64,000 nucleotides of DNA from Taibaiella koreensis (GTDB lineage: Bacteria > Bacteroidota > Bacteroidia > Chitinophagales > Chitinophagaceae). The stretch's first letter is position 1, and each line of letters begins with the position of its first letter. The stretch spans positions 682,001-746,000 of the forward strand of contig NZ_QVNU01000001.1 in the NCBI RefSeq assembly GCF_003545715.1, read 5' to 3'. This document shows, piece by piece, positions 38,246 to 44,886 of this stretch. The position numbers and the translations under genes were made by a program. Under the pieces are notes generated by a model. It was not told the origin of the DNA. It made no database searches and was given only the letters and a program-made list of their open reading frames with translations.

Positions 38246-38956
38246 TCAGATCAAAATTTCATCATCCACCAGCTCTTCGGGAATGTCTTCGACTGCCCGT
38301 CGTTCGAGCAAGGCCTCGGCTGTGGCGGCATCGACAGGGTAGCAGCGGAGCCTGCCGCTATAATACAGCACATAATATCCCGGTGCTACGGGCACATCGG
38401 GCGCAGGCTGCGCAGCATCGTAGGTGACCATGGCTTCCACCAGGGCAGTAGCATCATAAGTAAGATGCACTACCCGCGCAAGCGGATGCAGGGTGAAAAA
38501 ATCATCGTTGACATAGCTGGTCTCATCCTTGTCAAAACGAATGTCGTTGAGCGCATCGTCGATATTCAGCACATCTTCCAGGAAGGGCATGTCCAGCTGA
38601 CCTGCGGCGATCTTCTTTTTAAGGAAATCGCTGAAGAAGCCGATCTCGTCCTTGAACTGGAAAGATGTTCTGGGATAAGCTTTCCAGAACTCATGCAGCA
38701 GGGGCATCAGTTGCGGGTGTATGATCTTCAGCGTGTAGTTCATCAGCATAGTGAGCGGCGTGAGGCGGTTCATCTGGTACAGCATGTAATTGGCCTTCAT
38801 GCTTTTCTGCTGTATCATGCCCAGTAGCCGGTTCCGCTCTTTTTCTGTAAGGCTGTATTTCTGCTCCAGCGATGCGGGATCTTTATAATAGGCCTGGCCG
38901 ATGAGGGGGCTGGAGATGATCTCGGCCAGGGCTTCCTGAAACGACTTAAGCGACAT
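38246..38956 (-). CDS. MNIO partner protein (HvfC/BufC/ChrI-like role)
   Basis: A 236-residue cytosolic protein that begins inside the MNIO gene (ATG at 38954-38956, stop of the MNIO at 38946-38948: 11-bp overlap), so the two are translationally coupled. The first 55 residues (SFQEALAEIISSPLIGQAYY, DPASLEQKYSLTEKERNRLL) look like the small helical domain that opens many RiPP partner proteins; the middle is helical with aromatic residues, and the C-terminal 60 residues form a beta-rich piece (PGYYVLYYSGRLRCYPVD). In known MNIO systems the enzyme needs such a partner, which binds the leader peptide. Family membership is inferred mainly from context; I cannot assign it to DUF2063 with certainty. 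Confidence 0.72.
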   Translation of the reverse strand: MSLKSFQEALAEIISSPLIGQAYYKDPASLEQKYSLTEKERNRLLGMIQQKSMKANYMLYQMNRLTPLTMLMNYTLKIIHPQLMPLLHEFWKAYPRTSFQFKDEIGFFSDFLKKKIAAGQLDMPFLEDVLNIDDALNDIRFDKDETSYVNDDFFTLHPLARVVHLTYDATALVEAMVTYDAAQPAPDVPVAPGYYVLYYSGRLRCYPVDAATAEALLERRAVEDIPEELVDDEILI

Positions 38957-39839
38957 GTTGCGGTGTTTTGTGTTTATTCCAGATGTTCCTAGCTTTATTG
39001 AGCTGGTTGGCGACGCTCTCAAATCCTATTTCGGGAATATAGGATTCATCGACCTCGAAGGTAATACCCCTGATCTGGGTACAACGGGGCAGCACATGAT
39101 CCAGCATTTGCCATACTTCTTCAGGAACAGCACCGGAGTGCGAATCGAGGTACATGCCACCGGCTTCATTGCCACCGGCGATATGGATCTCCTGCACGGT
39201 ACCAAGATCGAGCGCATCGACGAAAGTGAAAGGGTCGAAGTTGAAGTTGCGGCTATTGACATAGACATTGTGCAGGTCCAGCAGCAGGCCGCAGCCAGCC
39301 TCCTGGCACAGGTTTTTGAGGAATTCGGGTTCGGTCAGCTCCTCATCCGGTATTTCGGCAAAGTACACATTGTTCTCGATGAAGAAAGGCGTGCCCACCT
39401 GCTCTTTGATCAACCGTATCTTGGCGGCGATCATGTCCAGCGATTCCTTATCGTAGGGTACAGGAAGGGCCAGGCAGGTATTGTATTCCGGGTCATCACC
39501 CTGTATCAATTTCGAATAAGAAAGGTGATCACTATGCCAGTGAAAGCCGAATTCGTCGTGCAGCTGCAGCACATTGTCGAGGTATTCCTTATCGAAGTAA
39601 TCGGCCGAGCCCAGCGAGAAGCCTATGTGGTGGGCTACCAGGGGCCAACGTTGCGCCAGGCCACGGATCATTTCCCATTCTTTGGCCACCTGTAAAAACC
39701 GTCCCGGCTGTCCCGGTCCCTGGTCCTGGATCAGGATATCGGGCGTAAGCTCTATATAGTCGAGGGTATGCGGGTATAGGTCGAAATAAGGATCCAACGC
39801 GATGTTGTAGATCATACCTATTCCTGTAGGCGTGTTCAT
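38946..39839 (-). CDS. DUF692 multinuclear non-heme iron oxidative enzyme (MNIO), RiPP maturase
   Basis: A 297-residue TIM-barrel protein of the DUF692 family (MbnB, TglH, ChrH, BufB/HvfB). The expected iron ligands can be read: H70/H71 in AHHIGFSLGS, WHSDHLSY at 101-108, E155 in PFFIENN, D188 and H190 in LLLDLHNVYVNS, H219 in EIHIAGG, D232 and H234 in LDSHSG, and E252 in FEVDES. Characterised members use two or three irons and O2 to rebuild cysteine residues of a precursor peptide (oxazolone/thioamide, beta-carbon excision, thiooxazole and similar). It lies downstream of two Cys-rich precursor genes, past a terminator and without a promoter of its own that I can see, and overlaps its partner gene. 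Confidence 0.9.
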   Translation of the reverse strand: MNTPTGIGMIYNIALDPYFDLYPHTLDYIELTPDILIQDQGPGQPGRFLQVAKEWEMIRGLAQRWPLVAHHIGFSLGSADYFDKEYLDNVLQLHDEFGFHWHSDHLSYSKLIQGDDPEYNTCLALPVPYDKESLDMIAAKIRLIKEQVGTPFFIENNVYFAEIPDEELTEPEFLKNLCQEAGCGLLLDLHNVYVNSRNFNFDPFTFVDALDLGTVQEIHIAGGNEAGGMYLDSHSGAVPEEVWQMLDHVLPRCTQIRGITFEVDESYIPEIGFESVANQLNKARNIWNKHKTPQHVA

Positions 39840-39901
39840 AGCAATGGTTTTTGTTTGGAAGAACTAATATACAAAAAAGGAACGGGGTTCCGGCAGCAGA
39901 T

Positions 39902-39939
39902 AAAAAAGGAGCCTGATACGGTATGCGATCAGGCTCCGG
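39902..39939 (-). terminator. Intrinsic terminator between precursor genes and MNIO gene
   Basis: Perfect 10-bp stem GGAGCCTGAT / ATCAGGCTCC, followed on the reverse strand by TTTTTT. It lies 13 bp past the second precursor's stop and 60 bp before the MNIO start, so the enzyme genes would be expressed by read-through. Confidence 0.88.
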
Positions 39940-39952
39940 TAATCGTTATTGC

Positions 39953-40261
39953 TTAGCCGATAGGAGTGAAGTCTCCGGGCTGCGCAGGTTCCAGATGACA
40001 GTCTACCGTCTGTGCGATCACAGTGCAGTATTTCTGGGCTACGGTATTGTTTGCGCCGGAGAGGCAGGCGGGACAGCAGGGCATAACCGTACCCTGAGTA
40101 TCGCAGTTCAGTCCTACACTCTTGGGGCAGTTAGCTGTTTGGGCAACAATGGTGCCGGTGCCGCCTACAGGTATCTGAGCGCCGCCTTTAACGGCTGACA
40201 TATTCATTACGGTGTCTTTTGCAAGCTTTAATTGTTTCAGTTGCAGATGTTTCTTTTTCAT
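39953..40261 (-). CDS. Cys-rich RiPP precursor peptide, second of the pair
   Basis: A 102-residue peptide. The leader MKKKHLQLKQLKLAKDTV ends at the double glycine G26-G27 and follows the Bacteroidota pattern MKKKxLxLxxLxLxKxT[VI]. The core has seven cysteines (45, 53, 62, 63, 66, 79, 88) with the central DTQGTVMPCCPACLSGANNT. It is a close paralogue of the peptide at 40325 (same leader, same Cys pattern; the C-terminal tail differs). A similar motif occurs twice in the core: GTIVAQTANC before and CTVIAQTVDC after the CCPAC centre. The substrate role for the adjacent MNIO is inferred from gene order and Cys content. Start chosen at the MKKK Met; an extension of 20 residues upstream is open but unlike the paralogue. 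Confidence 0.85.
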   Translation of the reverse strand: MKKKHLQLKQLKLAKDTVMNMSAVKGGAQIPVGGTGTIVAQTANCPKSVGLNCDTQGTVMPCCPACLSGANNTVAQKYCTVIAQTVDCHLEPAQPGDFTPIG

Positions 40262-40324
40262 AAAAAACTCATTTTGGGGGTTTTCGTTTGGTTGAAATGA
40301 AATGTGTTGTTTTTTACTCAAGGC

Positions 40325-40618
40325 TTAGGCCTGCGGCGGATCGACCGGAATCAGGGTGCAGTCCATAGTCTGTTCGATAATGGTGCAGAATTGCTTTACC
40401 ACGGTATTGTTGGCGCCGGAGCGGCAACCGGGACAGCAAGGCATTACGGTACCTTGTGTATCAACACAGGTCCGCTGCATTGTCCTGGCACAGTCGGCGG
40501 TCTGGGCAATGATGCTACCCGTATCGTTAATGGGTGCACCGCCTTTAACAGACGACATGTTCAGCACGGTTTCCTTGTTCAGCTTCAGTTGCTGGAGTTG
40601 CAGATGCTTTTTTTTCAT
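40325..40618 (-). CDS. Cys-rich RiPP precursor peptide, first of the pair
   Basis: A 97-residue peptide with leader MKKKHLQLQQLKLNKETV and double glycine G26-G27. Core cysteines are at 43, 51, 61, 62, 65, 78 and 87, all matching the paralogue at 39953, with the identical stretch DTQGTVMPCCP and then GCRSGANNTV. Flanking motifs GSIIAQTADC and CTIIEQTMDC repeat the same pattern either side of the centre. It is the first gene of the operon; a -7 element is at 40715-40722, giving a leader transcript of about 90 nt. Ser and Thr are also present, so lanthionine-type chemistry is not excluded by the sequence, but no lanthionine synthetase gene is here. Confidence 0.86.
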   Translation of the reverse strand: MKKKHLQLQQLKLNKETVLNMSSVKGGAPINDTGSIIAQTADCARTMQRTCVDTQGTVMPCCPGCRSGANNTVVKQFCTIIEQTMDCTLIPVDPPQA

Positions 40619-40714
40619 GCAGAAAAATAGTTTAGGGTGTTTAATAATGGTCTTACTCTTTTCATGGATTTTCAGTGCCTCCATTCCTGTAGAATGCGCA
40701 TTAAACAAGATAAA

Positions 40715-40722
40715 CAAATGTA
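40715..40722 (-). promoter_or_regulatory. -7 promoter element for the RiPP precursor operon
   Basis: TACATTTG on the reverse strand, exact consensus match, 97 bp before the precursor ATG. A second identical box 20 bp further upstream could be an alternative start point or a repeated regulatory site. Confidence 0.55.
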
Positions 40723-40894
40723 ATGTTTCGCTTTCAAATGTAGCGGCATTCCTACTACTATTTTATACATTTCTGTAAATTGGTATGTTTTTCCCGGTTG
40801 ACGCTATTCTCCGAGTAAATAAATAGTTAAAATTAACATGTTTTATGTGATGGAGCGCATAATTGCGACTGGTTTTTACCTGGAAGTAAAAAAT

Positions 40895-40957: not shown

Positions 40958-41512
40958 TTATAGCCTAAAAGAAACCCCGAGATTCAACGGAAAAGCCAGG
41001 GCGTCGGTAGTATTGAAAATATAACGGGGCGAGAGGTTGCCAAACACGCCGATATGGTGGTTGAAATAATGTGTGACACCGGCATCTATACCTGCGCTGA
41101 AGCCGGGATGGCTGCTCTGGCCGAGCAGCACCGCCTTGTTGACACCGGTAACCATACCTGCATGGACGCCGATGGAAACATCCAGGGCCCTATGATGAAA
41201 TACTTTCGCGATAAAAGCCGAAAAGGAAAACGCCGGATCGTAATAGGCGAAGCGATCCTTGTACTCCTGGCCCGTGACATCTATGGTGGTCAGCTCGCTC
41301 TTAACCTGGAAGAGATCGGCCCGTACACCTGCTTTCAGGGCCCCGAAGCTGATCGCAGCAGAGAACATACCCGAAGGTGCGGCAAAAAGGTTGGAAGCGT
41401 AGCCATTGCCCGATAGTCCGGCAAGAGCCAATCCGCCGCCCATAGAGAAGCTTATTTCTCTGGCTTGACAAAAGACAGGTAACAGCAGGAAAAGTAACAA
41501 CAACTTTTTCAT
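40958..41512 (-). CDS. Small outer-membrane beta-barrel protein
   Basis: A 184-residue protein: signal peptide MKKLLLLFLLLPVFCQARE, then repeated amphipathic strands (ISFSMGGGLALAGLSG, GMFSAAISFGALKAGVRADLF, YDPAFSFSAFIAKVFHHRALDVSIGVHAGM, FSAGIDAGVTHYF, LNLGVSFRL ending in Leu at the C-terminus). This is a small eight-stranded-type barrel such as OMP_b-brl; no specific family can be given. It lies 85 bp behind the Fur-family gene on the same strand and may be in its operon. It precedes the RiPP genes but is cut off from them by a strong terminator. Confidence 0.77.
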   Translation of the reverse strand: MKKLLLLFLLLPVFCQAREISFSMGGGLALAGLSGNGYASNLFAAPSGMFSAAISFGALKAGVRADLFQVKSELTTIDVTGQEYKDRFAYYDPAFSFSAFIAKVFHHRALDVSIGVHAGMVTGVNKAVLLGQSSHPGFSAGIDAGVTHYFNHHIGVFGNLSPRYIFNTTDALAFPLNLGVSFRL

Positions 41513-41597: not shown

Positions 41598-42023
41598 CTA
41601 ATGATGATTGCATTTGTTGCAAATGCCTTGTACCGTAAGGCTCATCTCTTCGGCAGTATAGGCCTCCGGCAGCTGTAACGCCGGTAGCACCGTGCTGGGC
41701 AGGCAAGTCGTTTCGTCACATTGACGGCAGTGAAAATGGATATGCAGGTCGTGATGTGGCGTGTCCGGCCGGCACTCCTCGGCACACAACGCATATTTGG
41801 TAGCACCGGTACCGTCTTCTATGCTGTGTACCAGGTGATGCTCCTCGAAGGTTTTTAAAGTACGGTATACGGTAATGCGATCGGTATGCGACAGGCCTTT
41901 TTCCACGTCGGCCAGGCTTACGGCAGCTTCCCGGGCCACAAGGTATTCCAGCACCCGCAGCCGCATGGCCGTGGGACTAATGCGCTTGGCAGCCAGGGTC
42001 CGTTCGAGGTTGTGTGTTTGCAT
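41598..42023 (-). CDS. Fur family transcriptional regulator
   Basis: A 141-residue metalloregulator. Winged helix (about 1-75): AKRISPTAMRLRVLEYLV, VSLADVEKGLSHTDRITVYRTLKTFEEHHLVHSI. Dimerisation domain with HHDLHIHFHCRQC (about 88-100) and a second CNKC at the C-terminus, giving the two CxxC pairs of the structural zinc site. Subtype (Fur, Zur, PerR) cannot be told. The ATG at 42023 gives a normal N-terminus; a longer frame overlaps the tsaE start. Divergent from tsaE with a 51-bp gap, upstream of a barrel protein and the RiPP genes. Confidence 0.93.
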   Translation of the reverse strand: MQTHNLERTLAAKRISPTAMRLRVLEYLVAREAAVSLADVEKGLSHTDRITVYRTLKTFEEHHLVHSIEDGTGATKYALCAEECRPDTPHHDLHIHFHCRQCDETTCLPSTVLPALQLPEAYTAEEMSLTVQGICNKCNHH

Positions 42024-42074
42024 AGCCGATATAGCCGGTATGGGCGGTGTAAATTTTGCTAATTTGCACCGGTT

Positions 42075-42506
42075 ATGCAAATTTCCTACACTTTATCCAA
42101 TATACAAGCCGCTGCGGATCAATTCTGGCAATATGCGCATCAATATCGTGTGATCACCTTCAATGGCGGCCTGGGCGCGGGTAAGACCACCTTTACCAGG
42201 GCGCTGTGCGCTTTGCTGGGCGTGGTCGATGTGGTGAGCAGCCCTACCTTTTCGCTCATCAACGAGTATCATTTCAAGGATGCCGAAGGCCATGACCGCC
42301 TTATCTATCATTCCGACTGGTACCGGCTGCGCGATGAAGAAGAGGCGATACAGGCCGGTATTGAGGATATGCTGTCGACAGCAGATTCCTGGTGCTTTAT
42401 CGAATGGGCCGAACGTGCGCCCGGTCTGCTGCCGCAACATTATCTCGAAGTGCATTTCAATGTCGCGGAAGACGATTCGCGTACATTGGTCTTAAAAAAG
42501 CACTAG
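42075..42506 (+). CDS. tsaE: tRNA threonylcarbamoyladenosine biosynthesis ATPase TsaE
   Basis: A 143-residue P-loop protein that works with TsaB and TsaD to make the t6A37 modification of ANN-decoding tRNAs. Walker A NGGLGAGKTTFTRAL at about 30-44, then VSSPTFSLINEY near 54, IYHSDWYRLRDEEE near 77 and CFIEWAERAPGLLP near 107: the full TsaE signature set. Length is normal. tsaB and tsaD are not in the window. Confidence 0.96.
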   Translation: MQISYTLSNIQAAADQFWQYAHQYRVITFNGGLGAGKTTFTRALCALLGVVDVVSSPTFSLINEYHFKDAEGHDRLIYHSDWYRLRDEEEAIQAGIEDMLSTADSWCFIEWAERAPGLLPQHYLEVHFNVAEDDSRTLVLKKH

Positions 42507-42614: not shown

Positions 42615-43535
42615 ATGCTGCTTTCTGTAAAAAATCTAAAAAAGTACTATGCTACGCAAAAGGCTGTAGACGATATCAGCTTCGATATCGCCCAGGGGAG
42701 CATATTTGGACTGCTGGGGCCCAACGGCGCCGGCAAAAGCACCTTGCTGCGCATGGTCACGGGTATCTTTTATCCCGACTCGGGGCAGGTCCTGTTCAAC
42801 GGAGAGGCTTTCGACATGCTGAAGCATGTGGGCGAAATGGGGTATATGCCTGAAGAAAGAGGGCTTTACAAAAAAATGAAGATCGGGGAGCAGGCCCTGT
42901 ACCTGGCCCAGCTGCGCGGGCTGAGCCGTGCAGAAGCCGAAAAGCGCAGTAAAGATTGGTTTGCCCGTCTGGATATGAATAGCTGGTGGGATAAAAAGGT
43001 GGAAGACCTTAGTAAGGGTATGAGCCAGAAGCTGCAATTTGTCACTACCGTGATCCATAACCCGAAGCTACTGATCCTGGATGAGCCCTTCAGTGGTCTG
43101 GACCCCGTTAATGCCAATGTGCTGAAAGATGAGATCTTCCGCCTGGCGAAAGAAGGCACTACCGTTATTTTCAGCACGCATCGTATGGAACAGGTCGAAG
43201 AGATATGCGATCATATCATTCTCGTGAACCAGGGTAAAAAGATACTGGATGGTACCGTAAAGCAGGTGCGGCAGGATTTTAAAGAAAACGTTTTCAGCAT
43301 TACGCTCGAGCGGGCACCCACTGCCTTACCAGAGGGCATCGAAGTAATGAAGCAACAGGACAACACGCTCGTTTTTCACCTGAAAGAAGGCGAAAGTGCC
43401 AACGGTGTATTGCAGTATTTTATCGGGCAGGGCTATATGGTCGGCGCCTTTTCAGAAATACTCCCTTCCCTCAACGATATCTTCATTCGCCTGGTGCAGG
43501 GTACTGCAGCTGCGCGGGCTTTCCAGGAAGTATAA
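42615..43535 (+). CDS. ABC transporter ATP-binding protein (NatA-like)
   Basis: A 306-residue ABC ATPase: Walker A GLLGPNGAGKST at about 32-43, Q-loop region GYMPEERGLYKKM near 76, signature LSKGMSQKLQ near 133, Walker B LLILDEPFSGLDP near 152, and switch His in STHRMEQVEE near 184. The GYMPEERGLY block and the ~90-residue C-terminal DUF4162-type domain place it with NatA-type exporters. It pairs with the permease 46 bp downstream. A strong Shine-Dalgarno site precedes it. Substrate unknown; sodium or hydrophobic compounds are handled by characterised relatives. Confidence 0.94.
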   Translation: MLLSVKNLKKYYATQKAVDDISFDIAQGSIFGLLGPNGAGKSTLLRMVTGIFYPDSGQVLFNGEAFDMLKHVGEMGYMPEERGLYKKMKIGEQALYLAQLRGLSRAEAEKRSKDWFARLDMNSWWDKKVEDLSKGMSQKLQFVTTVIHNPKLLILDEPFSGLDPVNANVLKDEIFRLAKEGTTVIFSTHRMEQVEEICDHIILVNQGKKILDGTVKQVRQDFKENVFSITLERAPTALPEGIEVMKQQDNTLVFHLKEGESANGVLQYFIGQGYMVGAFSEILPSLNDIFIRLVQGTAAARAFQEV

Positions 43536-43581
43536 GCGTACGCCATTCCCGACCATATTTTAACCAAAAAATTTTTGATCT

Positions 43582-44886
43582 ATGAATAAAACTTTGATCA
43601 TTATCAAAAGAGAGTATCTGACCCGTGTCAGGAAACGCTCTTTCATTGTGCTTACCCTGCTGATCCCTTTCCTGTTCATCGGGTTGGCGGCGCTCACCGG
43701 TCTTATTGCTGTGGGCGGCTCCACCGGCGACAAAAAGATCGCTGTGCTTGACAATAGTGGGGGAGTGTTTGAAAAAAATCTGAAAGCTTCCAAGCATGTA
43801 CATTATGTGTTTATGCATGGAACACTGGATTCGCTGAAGCATAACCTGGATAAGAAAAAGTATGATGCCTTGCTCTATATCCCGGGTATCGATAAGGACT
43901 TGAATTTTCAGCTGCTGTACAACGAACAAATCGGCATTACTACAGAGGCTCGTATCACCGACGATTTGAACGATATAGTGCGCAACGAGCGTATGAAAGC
44001 GGCGGGCATCAGCAGTGAGCAATTGAAAGTGATCGAGGCAGAGAGCATTAGCCTTAAGGTGACCAATATCCAGGATGGCAAGGAATCGAGCAATGCAACG
44101 GCCATGATCATCGGCTACGCCTGCGGCTTCCTGCTGTATATGTTCATGTTGTTTTATGGTATGAGCGTAATGCGAAGTGTGATGGAGGAAAAGACCAACC
44201 GTATCGCGGAGATCATCGTGAGCTCGGTACGGCCCTTCCAATTGATGCTGGGCAAGATCATAGGCGTGGCCCTGGTCGGTCTTACTCAGGTGCTGATCTG
44301 GATCGTATTGTTCGGCCTGTTCGCGGCCATAGGTATCCCTATGATGACCGGCGGCATGGCTATGCAAGTGGACCCGGCGTCCATGAACGAGGCGGCTAGC
44401 CAGGCCACGGACAGCGCCAAGATGATGCAGATATTGCACGCGTTGCAGGGCACCAACTGGTGGCTGATCGCAATATGCTTCCTCTTCTATTTCCTGGGCG
44501 GTTATTTCCTGTATGCGGCCCTGTTTGCTGCGGTGGGCAGCCTGGTAAACGAAGACCCGCAGGAGTCGGGCCAGTACACCTTGCCCATTACAATACCTAT
44601 TATCCTGGGTTTTGTGATGATGTCTTCGGCCATTGGTAATCCCAACAGCGGTATCGCTATCTTCGGCAGCATTTTCCCGCTTACATCGCCTATCGTGATG
44701 ATGGCCCGGTTACCATTCGGCGTGGCAGCCGACCATCCCGAGCAGCTTATCGCATCGATGCTATGCCTTGTAGGCGGCTTTTTTGCCACCACCTGGATGG
44801 CGGGTAAGATCTATCGTACCGGCATTCTGATGTATGGTAAAAAGATCAGTCTGAAAGAAGCCGGTAAATGGCTGATGCGGAAATAA
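43582..44886 (+). CDS. ABC transporter permease (NatB-like, ABC-2 type)
   Basis: A 434-residue membrane protein. One N-terminal helix (TFLIIKRE-type start, then RSFIVLTLLIPFLFIGLAAL at about 19-38), a large extracytoplasmic domain (about 45-170), then five or six helices from about 172 (MIIGYACGFLLYMFMLFYGMS, VALVGLTQVLIWIVLFGLFA, LIAICFLFYFLGGYFLYAALFAAVG, TIPIILGFVMMSSA). EEKTNRIAEIIVSSVRPFQLMLGKIIG near 200 is the ABC-2/NatB coupling segment. Forms an exporter with the ATPase upstream. The palindromic array at 44906 follows and may end the transcript. Confidence 0.93.
   Translation: MNKTLIIIKREYLTRVRKRSFIVLTLLIPFLFIGLAALTGLIAVGGSTGDKKIAVLDNSGGVFEKNLKASKHVHYVFMHGTLDSLKHNLDKKKYDALLYIPGIDKDLNFQLLYNEQIGITTEARITDDLNDIVRNERMKAAGISSEQLKVIEAESISLKVTNIQDGKESSNATAMIIGYACGFLLYMFMLFYGMSVMRSVMEEKTNRIAEIIVSSVRPFQLMLGKIIGVALVGLTQVLIWIVLFGLFAAIGIPMMTGGMAMQVDPASMNEAASQATDSAKMMQILHALQGTNWWLIAICFLFYFLGGYFLYAALFAAVGSLVNEDPQESGQYTLPITIPIILGFVMMSSAIGNPNSGIAIFGSIFPLTSPIVMMARLPFGVAADHPEQLIASMLCLVGGFFATTWMAGKIYRTGILMYGKKISLKEAGKWLMRK

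Follow-up and report, generated by a model that had tools for sequence, protein, structure and literature searches.

What do two cysteine-rich peptides, an MNIO (DUF692) enzyme and a gene overlapping that of the enzyme accomplish together in Taibaiella koreensis, and which part of the peptides would the enzyme recognize? These genes lie in a stretch of 64,000 nucleotides (contig NZ_QVNU01000001.1, positions 682,001 to 746,000), referred to here as the window, and are transcribed from its minus strand in the order precursor 1, precursor 2, MNIO gene and partner gene. MNIO enzymes perform unusual cysteine chemistry, and we consider it likely that the locus is a unit of the MNIO class for the modification of ribosomally synthesized and post-translationally modified peptides (RiPPs), in which enzyme and partner oxidise cysteines in a CxxCxSG motif. 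This view is carried by the genes themselves, the iron ligands of the enzyme, a conserved motif, the co-occurrence of precursors and enzyme, and the selection acting on the precursors, all of which are read from the sequence. The components are the following.

40325..40618, minus strand: precursor peptide 1, 97 amino acids from its ATG, seven cysteines, double glycine at residues 26-27 (from the sequence)
40415..40435, minus strand: CPGCRSG motif of precursor 1, the proposed modification site (read from the sequence)
39953..40261, minus strand: precursor peptide 2, 102 amino acids from its ATG, seven cysteines, leader of the precursor 1 type with double glycine (from the sequence)
40055..40075, minus strand: CPACLSG motif of precursor 2 (read from the sequence)
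38946..39839, minus strand: MNIO (DUF692) enzyme, 297 amino acids (PF05114)
38246..38956, minus strand: probable TglI-like (PME-type 2) partner protein, 236 amino acids (predicted fold)

An earlier, sequence-only reading of the window had described two precursors that have one type of leader in common and contain a double glycine and seven cysteines in alignment, followed by an MNIO enzyme with its iron ligands and an overlapping partner gene; all of these are present, and the enzyme and partner genes overlap by 11 bases. The enzyme matches PF05114 with 197.7 bits (cut-off 25), and its best match in the Protein Data Bank (PDB) is TglH, with similarity over the full length (phmmer, E 2.6e-27). 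The nine residues described as iron ligands of TglH (His71, His107, Glu151, Asp184, Asn187, His216, Asp229, His231 and Glu258; PMC10880893) are all identical in the window enzyme (H70, H105, E155, D188, N191, H219, D232, H234 and E262, counted along the pairwise alignment with TglH) and are invariant across 16 aligned rows, the window included; MNIO enzymes have a site for two or three irons. Among the NCBIfam models, the enzyme scores 170.8 bits with BufB, 153 with HvfB, 97.3 with ApyH, 70.4 with ChrH and 38.9 with MbnB, all five far below the cut-offs (BufB 310, HvfB 360, ChrH 600).

The trio of precursor, MNIO and partner recurs in other Chitinophagaceae. A search with the window enzyme returned 10 of the 195 genomes of this family at E 1e-30 or better, five of them close (45-100% identity, the own genome included) and five at 29-32%; the nearest named relatives by MNIO identity are T. 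helva (89%) and T. chishuiensis (69%). An enzyme profile, applied to overlapping genome samples at thresholds of 1e-50 or 1e-60, which miss members such as locus L058 (see below), matched 3/4 genomes of the genus, 17/79 of a genus designated g6, 3/396 of the order and 1/395 of the phylum sample, the last being T. koreensis itself. A g6 precursor profile matched 18 of the 79 g6 genomes at E 0.01; 17 of these (E 4.3e-40 or better) are exactly the MNIO genomes, seven of which themselves contribute to the profile, and the eighteenth match is weak (E 0.004) and lies within a 751-amino-acid frame with a stop. Similarly, a Taibaiella precursor profile matched 3/195 family genomes, namely the three MNIO-bearing Taibaiella, all of which are members of that profile; a further weak match, from T. 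helva, is to an orphan peptide that has the leader in common. Precursors and enzyme therefore co-occur in the searched genomes, contrary to a scenario raised by the earlier reading in which the precursors usually occur without the MNIO. In eight of the 17 g6 loci, which were viewed widely, the trio of precursor, MNIO and partner stands between constant neighbours, with a major facilitator superfamily (MFS) transporter on one side, and the trio therefore looks vertically inherited within this genus. None of 15 pattern matches in viral contigs encodes a relative, and 356 plasmid records contain distant MNIOs, all below 60% identity among the matches listed (15 of 356), with no partner or precursor 1 match on plasmids at E 0.01.

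The constant feature of the precursors is a short core motif. A short upstream open reading frame (ORF) with C..C.SG on the same strand was found in all 22 loci with separate genes (three Taibaiella, G125, G161 and 17 g6), and with the stricter pattern C[PQ][AG]C[RLH]SG the count was 23/23 loci when L058 is included, versus 0/22 loci of two other MNIO groups. As a background, 13 wide loci, which together span 234,192 bases and include 2165 ORFs of at least 30 amino acids, contain 18 matches to C..C.SG; 16 fall in precursors, and neither of the remaining two fits the strict motif. Across 12 aligned precursors (alignment A5, with 5 of the 17 g6 precursors), only two cysteines, the serine, the glycine and the start methionine are invariant, and the seven cysteines were consequently discarded as a defining feature: there are five in T. 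chishuiensis and two in the g6 peptides, and the peptide of genus g31 has two CPAC units. Nine aligned peptides from g6, G161 and G103 (alignment A7, with 7 of the 17 g6 precursors) share an upstream P, G-C-x-x-C-x-S-G, and then F, I-R and E. What remains constant at the centre is C[PQ][AG]C[RLH]SG; the CCPxC centre proposed from the window alone did not survive the comparison, and neither did the seven-cysteine pattern.

The leader behaves differently. In Taibaiella, it resembles the L1a leader of class I lanthipeptides and contains the double glycine, with 15.8 and 8.0 bits for the window precursors and 15.3 for T. chishuiensis, below the curated cut-off of 22. The G125 peptide (genus g31) has a different leader that ends in IIGG, together with two CPACRSG units, and the g6, G161 and G103 peptides are without that double-glycine pattern. 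As judged by these alignments, the leader varies across the relatives, whereas enzyme, partner and motif are constant. Because the leaders differ among relatives that have this enzyme, the leader looks like a replaceable label and not like the defining oddity of the locus; the lanthipeptide-type leader, whose pairing with an MNIO the earlier reading held to be unusual, resembles L1a below the cut-off. In the G125 locus, the precursor (L015, 2461-2688) carries two tandem TCPACRSGF units and adjoins a C39 ABC transporter.

It is conceivable that the Taibaiella peptides are lanthipeptide precursors that lie beside an MNIO by chance, their L1a-like leader being read by a LanB enzyme encoded elsewhere. 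The leader score of 15.8 bits, the LanB with a C39 exporter in this genome and the presence of orphan peptides with such leaders would fit, but the motif also accompanies the MNIO in relatives with very different leaders, and of 195 family genomes only the three MNIO-bearing Taibaiella carry this type of precursor; we regard this explanation as very improbable. A more elaborate combination, to which we would also give little credit, is that an undescribed MNIO family reads the core C[PQ][AG]C[RLH]SG whatever leader precedes it, with the leaders swapped among L1a-like with double glycine, IIGG and forms lacking it, and that the Taibaiella leader might additionally recruit LanB and the C39 exporter, yielding a hybrid with oxidised cysteines and dehydrated or lanthionine residues.

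The precursors themselves appear to be genuine genes. The mechanically called ORFs are longer than the ATG-started precursors (130 and 122 amino acids for precursors 1 and 2, respectively); the ATG start is the better fit for precursor 1, since one additional base in T. helva, directly before ATGAAAAAA, puts the extension out of frame. Between the window and T. helva, the region upstream of precursor 1 (40619-40860) is strongly conserved; this includes TACATTTG, which we take to resemble the Bacteroidota -7 element TAnnTTTG. Nonsynonymous and synonymous substitution rates (dN/dS) against T. helva, whose ratios are rough because dS is high, are 0.077/0.693 (about 0.11, NG86) for precursor 1 and 0.093/1.985 (about 0.05, NG86) or 0.113/0.945 (0.12, YN00) for precursor 2; the corresponding NG86 ratios are 0.05 for the MNIO and 0.13 for the partner, and an SRP-type neighbouring gene, used as a reference, is under tighter constraint (0.012/0.926, 0.01). 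These values indicate that both precursors are under purifying selection. No Pfam or NCBIfam model above its cut-off covers the precursors, and inspection by eye, in place of a signal-peptide program, revealed no evident Sec signal. The structure model of the precursor is of low confidence throughout (pLDDT 48, five sequences) and uninformative. The peptides could in principle be small cysteine proteins that are not RiPPs, binding zinc or forming disulfides, with the enzyme acting on another substrate, and the g31 peptide does show weak zinc-ribbon-like matches, all below cut-off; this reading is nevertheless hardly credible, given an enzyme with all its ligands and a low dN/dS and a strict motif that is missing from every one of the 22 loci of the other MNIO groups, to which the precursor model, indicating no fold, adds a weak argument.

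The partner ORF adjoins the MNIO in 22/22 separate-gene loci (T. helva included). The window protein has no Pfam or NCBIfam match, and DUF2063 is matched by none of 16 partner rows. In its AlphaFold2 model (pLDDT 66, pTM 0.52, three sequences), the N-terminal part is helical, and the C-terminal part combines three strands with helices; in a Foldseek search against 350,542 PDB chains, the model matched TglI (8hi7, E 1.6e-4; 8hci, E 1.6e-3) and then NGO1945 (3dee, E 0.035), with nothing else below E 0.3. From its position after the MNIO, the lack of DUF2063 and the predicted fold, the partner is most likely a TglI-like protein of PME-type 2, a type that, as described in PMC12452194, accompanies precursors without Sec signals. 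Over the order, the partner profile matched 4/396 genomes, namely the three MNIO genomes and one weak match (E 0.002) within a 1538-amino-acid frame.

The other MNIOs of the family provide a comparison. PF05114 gave 28 matches in 23/195 family genomes: five of the window type, nine HvfB/BufB-like with high scores, 13 ChrH-like, and L058. The one HvfB/BufB-like enzyme that was scanned (L051) scores 360.9 bits with HvfB (cut-off 360), and the one ChrH-like enzyme scanned, that of the T. koreensis genome, scores 367.3 bits with ChrH (cut-off 600). EGKCG occurs in 4/9 HvfB-like loci and CPxCGxG in 12/13 ChrH-like loci, the thirteenth having CLACGMG; each MNIO group carries its own candidate motif. 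Stray matches to a loose CxxC pattern occur in L047 (HvfB-like, opposite strand) and L061 (ChrH-like, downstream). In a tree of 38 rows without L058, the 13 ChrH-like enzymes group at 100/100 and eight Buf/Hvf-like enzymes at 100/99. Of the 17 g6 enzymes, the trees include 12 and alignment A4 includes 11, and L049 is absent from both trees because no ORF of at least 240 amino acids was found to span the match.

These data bear on a ChrH-like chemistry, in which CxxCxSG would become a macrocycle with a hydantoin through convergence on a substrate of the CPxCGxG type. The layout C-P-A-C-x-x-G is common to CPACGMG, and the T. koreensis genome has a ChrH-like locus for comparison; however, the window enzyme scores 70.4 bits against a cut-off of 600 and falls outside the ChrH-like tree group, R/L/H and S replace G5 and M6 of the ChrH motif, and the partner is TglI-like, whereas ChrI is described as membrane-bound (PMC10214503) and DybH as needing no partner. 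Such a chemistry is unlikely here, and membership of the window enzyme in the ChrH group itself is ruled out by score and tree. The ChrH-like MNIO of T. koreensis lies outside the window (G000:C10:767788-768396; L002, L068), downstream of two short peptides that end in NCPPCGRG and NCPGCGMG, look like lipoproteins by eye and resemble the DybA type.

L058 (genome G103, 793-2259) encodes a 488-amino-acid MNIO with a C-terminal extension, and a 71-amino-acid ORF with CPGCHSG (2279-2494) lies 19 bases upstream of it. The C-terminal part scores a weak 7.6 bits with the partner profile (best of 200 shuffles, 5.1; whole protein, 2.1), and hhalign gave E 0.0015 at a probability of only 17%, values that are only suggestive of a natural fusion of enzyme and partner. 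In a tree including L058, it joins the set with the window-type enzymes at 82/90 on a branch of length 7.09, and because of this long branch it was omitted from the second tree.

Further genes lie near the trio.

40958..41512, minus strand: 184-amino-acid protein without a Pfam match, judged by eye to be of the outer-membrane type, association uncertain
41598..42080, minus strand: Fur-family regulator (PF01475, 34.4 bits, cut-off 23.1), association uncertain
42615-44886, strand opposite to the precursors: DrrA-type ATPase and ABC-2 permease, about 2 kb upstream

Farther upstream on the opposite strand, a TsaE gene accompanies the DrrA/ABC-2 type transporter, which all three Taibaiella have close to the trio; the SRP-type gene (by eye) and a thiolase gene lie downstream. 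The Fur-family gene and the 184-amino-acid protein have equal placement and order in T. helva, and the T. chishuiensis locus is without both. The Fur-family regulator was set aside as a component of the system, having no support outside the window and T. helva. Under a bufferin-like reading, several cysteines would become thiooxazoles and bind copper or another metal under stress, with Fur-family control. The best model score of the enzyme (BufB), two precursors with seven cysteines apiece, and the upstream Fur-family gene in the window and T. helva are consistent with metal buffering. Yet the T. chishuiensis locus lacks the Fur-family and outer-membrane-type genes, the cysteines fall to two in relatives, the partner has no Pfam match and hence no DUF2063, and the precursors bear a double-glycine leader and no Sec signal evident by eye; we therefore hold this role to be possible but doubtful.

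Returning to the proposed modification unit, the substrate binding, reacting cysteine, product, export route and biological role can be sketched as follows. The partner, with its helical N-terminal part and a C-terminal part resembling a RiPP recognition element (RRE), as in TglI, would bring the precursor to the MNIO; the second cysteine of C[PQ][AG]C[RLH]SG would bind iron and be oxidised by four electrons with O2; and the product would be a thiooxazole, as with BufB/HvfB, or a ring joining both cysteines, as with ChrH. In Taibaiella, a C39 ABC transporter with its gene at another place in the genome would then remove the double-glycine leader and export the peptide. For ChrH, the reaction has been proposed to begin at the second cysteine of CPACGMG, the first closing the ring (PMC10214503), and MNIOs of the bufferin/oxazolin kind are described as forming 5-thiooxazoles with the loss of four hydrogens per site (PMC12668002, PMC12636315). 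A four-electron oxidation (-4 Da) at the second cysteine is our best guess, and a thiooxazole seems somewhat more likely than a ChrH-like ring. The signals differ in this respect: the enzyme score is nearer to BufB, the motif is nearer to ChrH, and the partner is TglI-like.

Several points weigh against this proposal. The reaction is not readable from the enzyme score, since the top score, BufB, is far below its cut-off. The count of 23/23 loci holds partly by construction, because the strict motif was drawn from the same loci. In the tree, a branch with support of 72/77, which is not strong, sets the 17 rows of window-type enzymes apart from the others, and the tree program warns of long branches meeting. 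The partner model is of modest confidence, and the partner profile found no MNIO partner among PDB sequences, its three matches (E 0.04-0.07) being to a Mediator subunit. A C39 exporter was not seen next to the trio in Taibaiella, in G161 or in the widely viewed g6 loci, and no product or mass shift is known.

The question of export qualifies another claim of the sequence-only reading, that of a complete minimal biosynthetic unit. No C39 exporter stands beside the trio in Taibaiella, and no LanB-sized ORF overlaps 34-46 kb of the window; completeness would thus extend at most to the modification step. In G125, a C39 transporter (Pfam) does adjoin the trio, and it has one match in the T. koreensis genome at E 1e-60 or better, the range covered by this search. 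This match, on contig C16, is 49% identical and adjoins a LanB gene and an HlyD-type gene. The same genome contains 12 further leader-like matches, most of them weak; the surroundings of six were viewed, and they include five complete Cys/Thr-rich orphan peptides with L1a-like leaders (L082, L086 and L087; contigs C21 and C23), away from the LanB of C16. The MNIO precursors would probably use the C16 exporter as a shared one, with the double-glycine leader cut there, and the DrrA/ABC-2 transporter near the trio is a possible alternative.

As far as the listings and passages found show, the literature describes no CxxCxSG family of MNIOs. The six spelled forms of the motif were in no paper found, in a literature search that covered texts without supplements and few subscription papers. 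In the main text of PMC12452194, figures aside, the terms "Bacteroidota" and "double glycine" are absent, and the consulted part of PMC12710340, on RREs, names MNIO as one marker domain and has nothing on such a family. No family model claims the precursors or the partner; the MNIO class and the partner type are already known. Many MNIO substrates are described as unassigned (PMC12452194). With its defined core motif, its natural exchanges of leader and its possible fusion, the small CxxCxSG family could reveal which of the two, core or leader, is read by MNIO partners, and an enzyme that reads the core, if this is true, would be useful to install oxidised cysteines in designed peptides.

Among known systems, class I lanthipeptides of Bacteroidota (L1a) share the leader-like sequence and the double glycine, but the modifying enzyme here is an MNIO and no LanB lies beside the Taibaiella genes, the only one seen being on C16. 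The bufferins and oxazolins (BufB, HvfB) give the top NCBIfam scores of the enzyme and have the same order of precursor, MNIO and partner; by contrast, the scores of 170.8 and 153 stay below the cut-offs of 310 and 360, the partner is free of DUF2063, and EGKCG does not occur in the Taibaiella precursors. The chryseobasin/DybA type (ChrH) resembles the Taibaiella system in its CxxC, often CPAC, with a glycine three residues past the second cysteine, and differs in its separate enzyme group, its other type of partner and its C-terminal CPxCGxG in place of an internal CxxCxSG. As described in PMC12452194, adjamnio-7 (CxxC) and adjamnio-I likewise combine an MNIO with a precursor without Sec signal, adjamnio-I also with a PME-type 2 partner; adjamnio-7, whose named example is from Novilysobacter, may overlap the CxxCxSG family. 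TglH/TglI of the pearlin (3-thiaglutamate) pathway agrees in full-length enzyme similarity, in the nine iron ligands and in the predicted fold of the partner, but TglA is described as receiving its C-terminal cysteine from the peptide aminoacyl-tRNA ligase (PEARL) TglB, whereas the cysteines of the Taibaiella precursors are ribosomal and internal.

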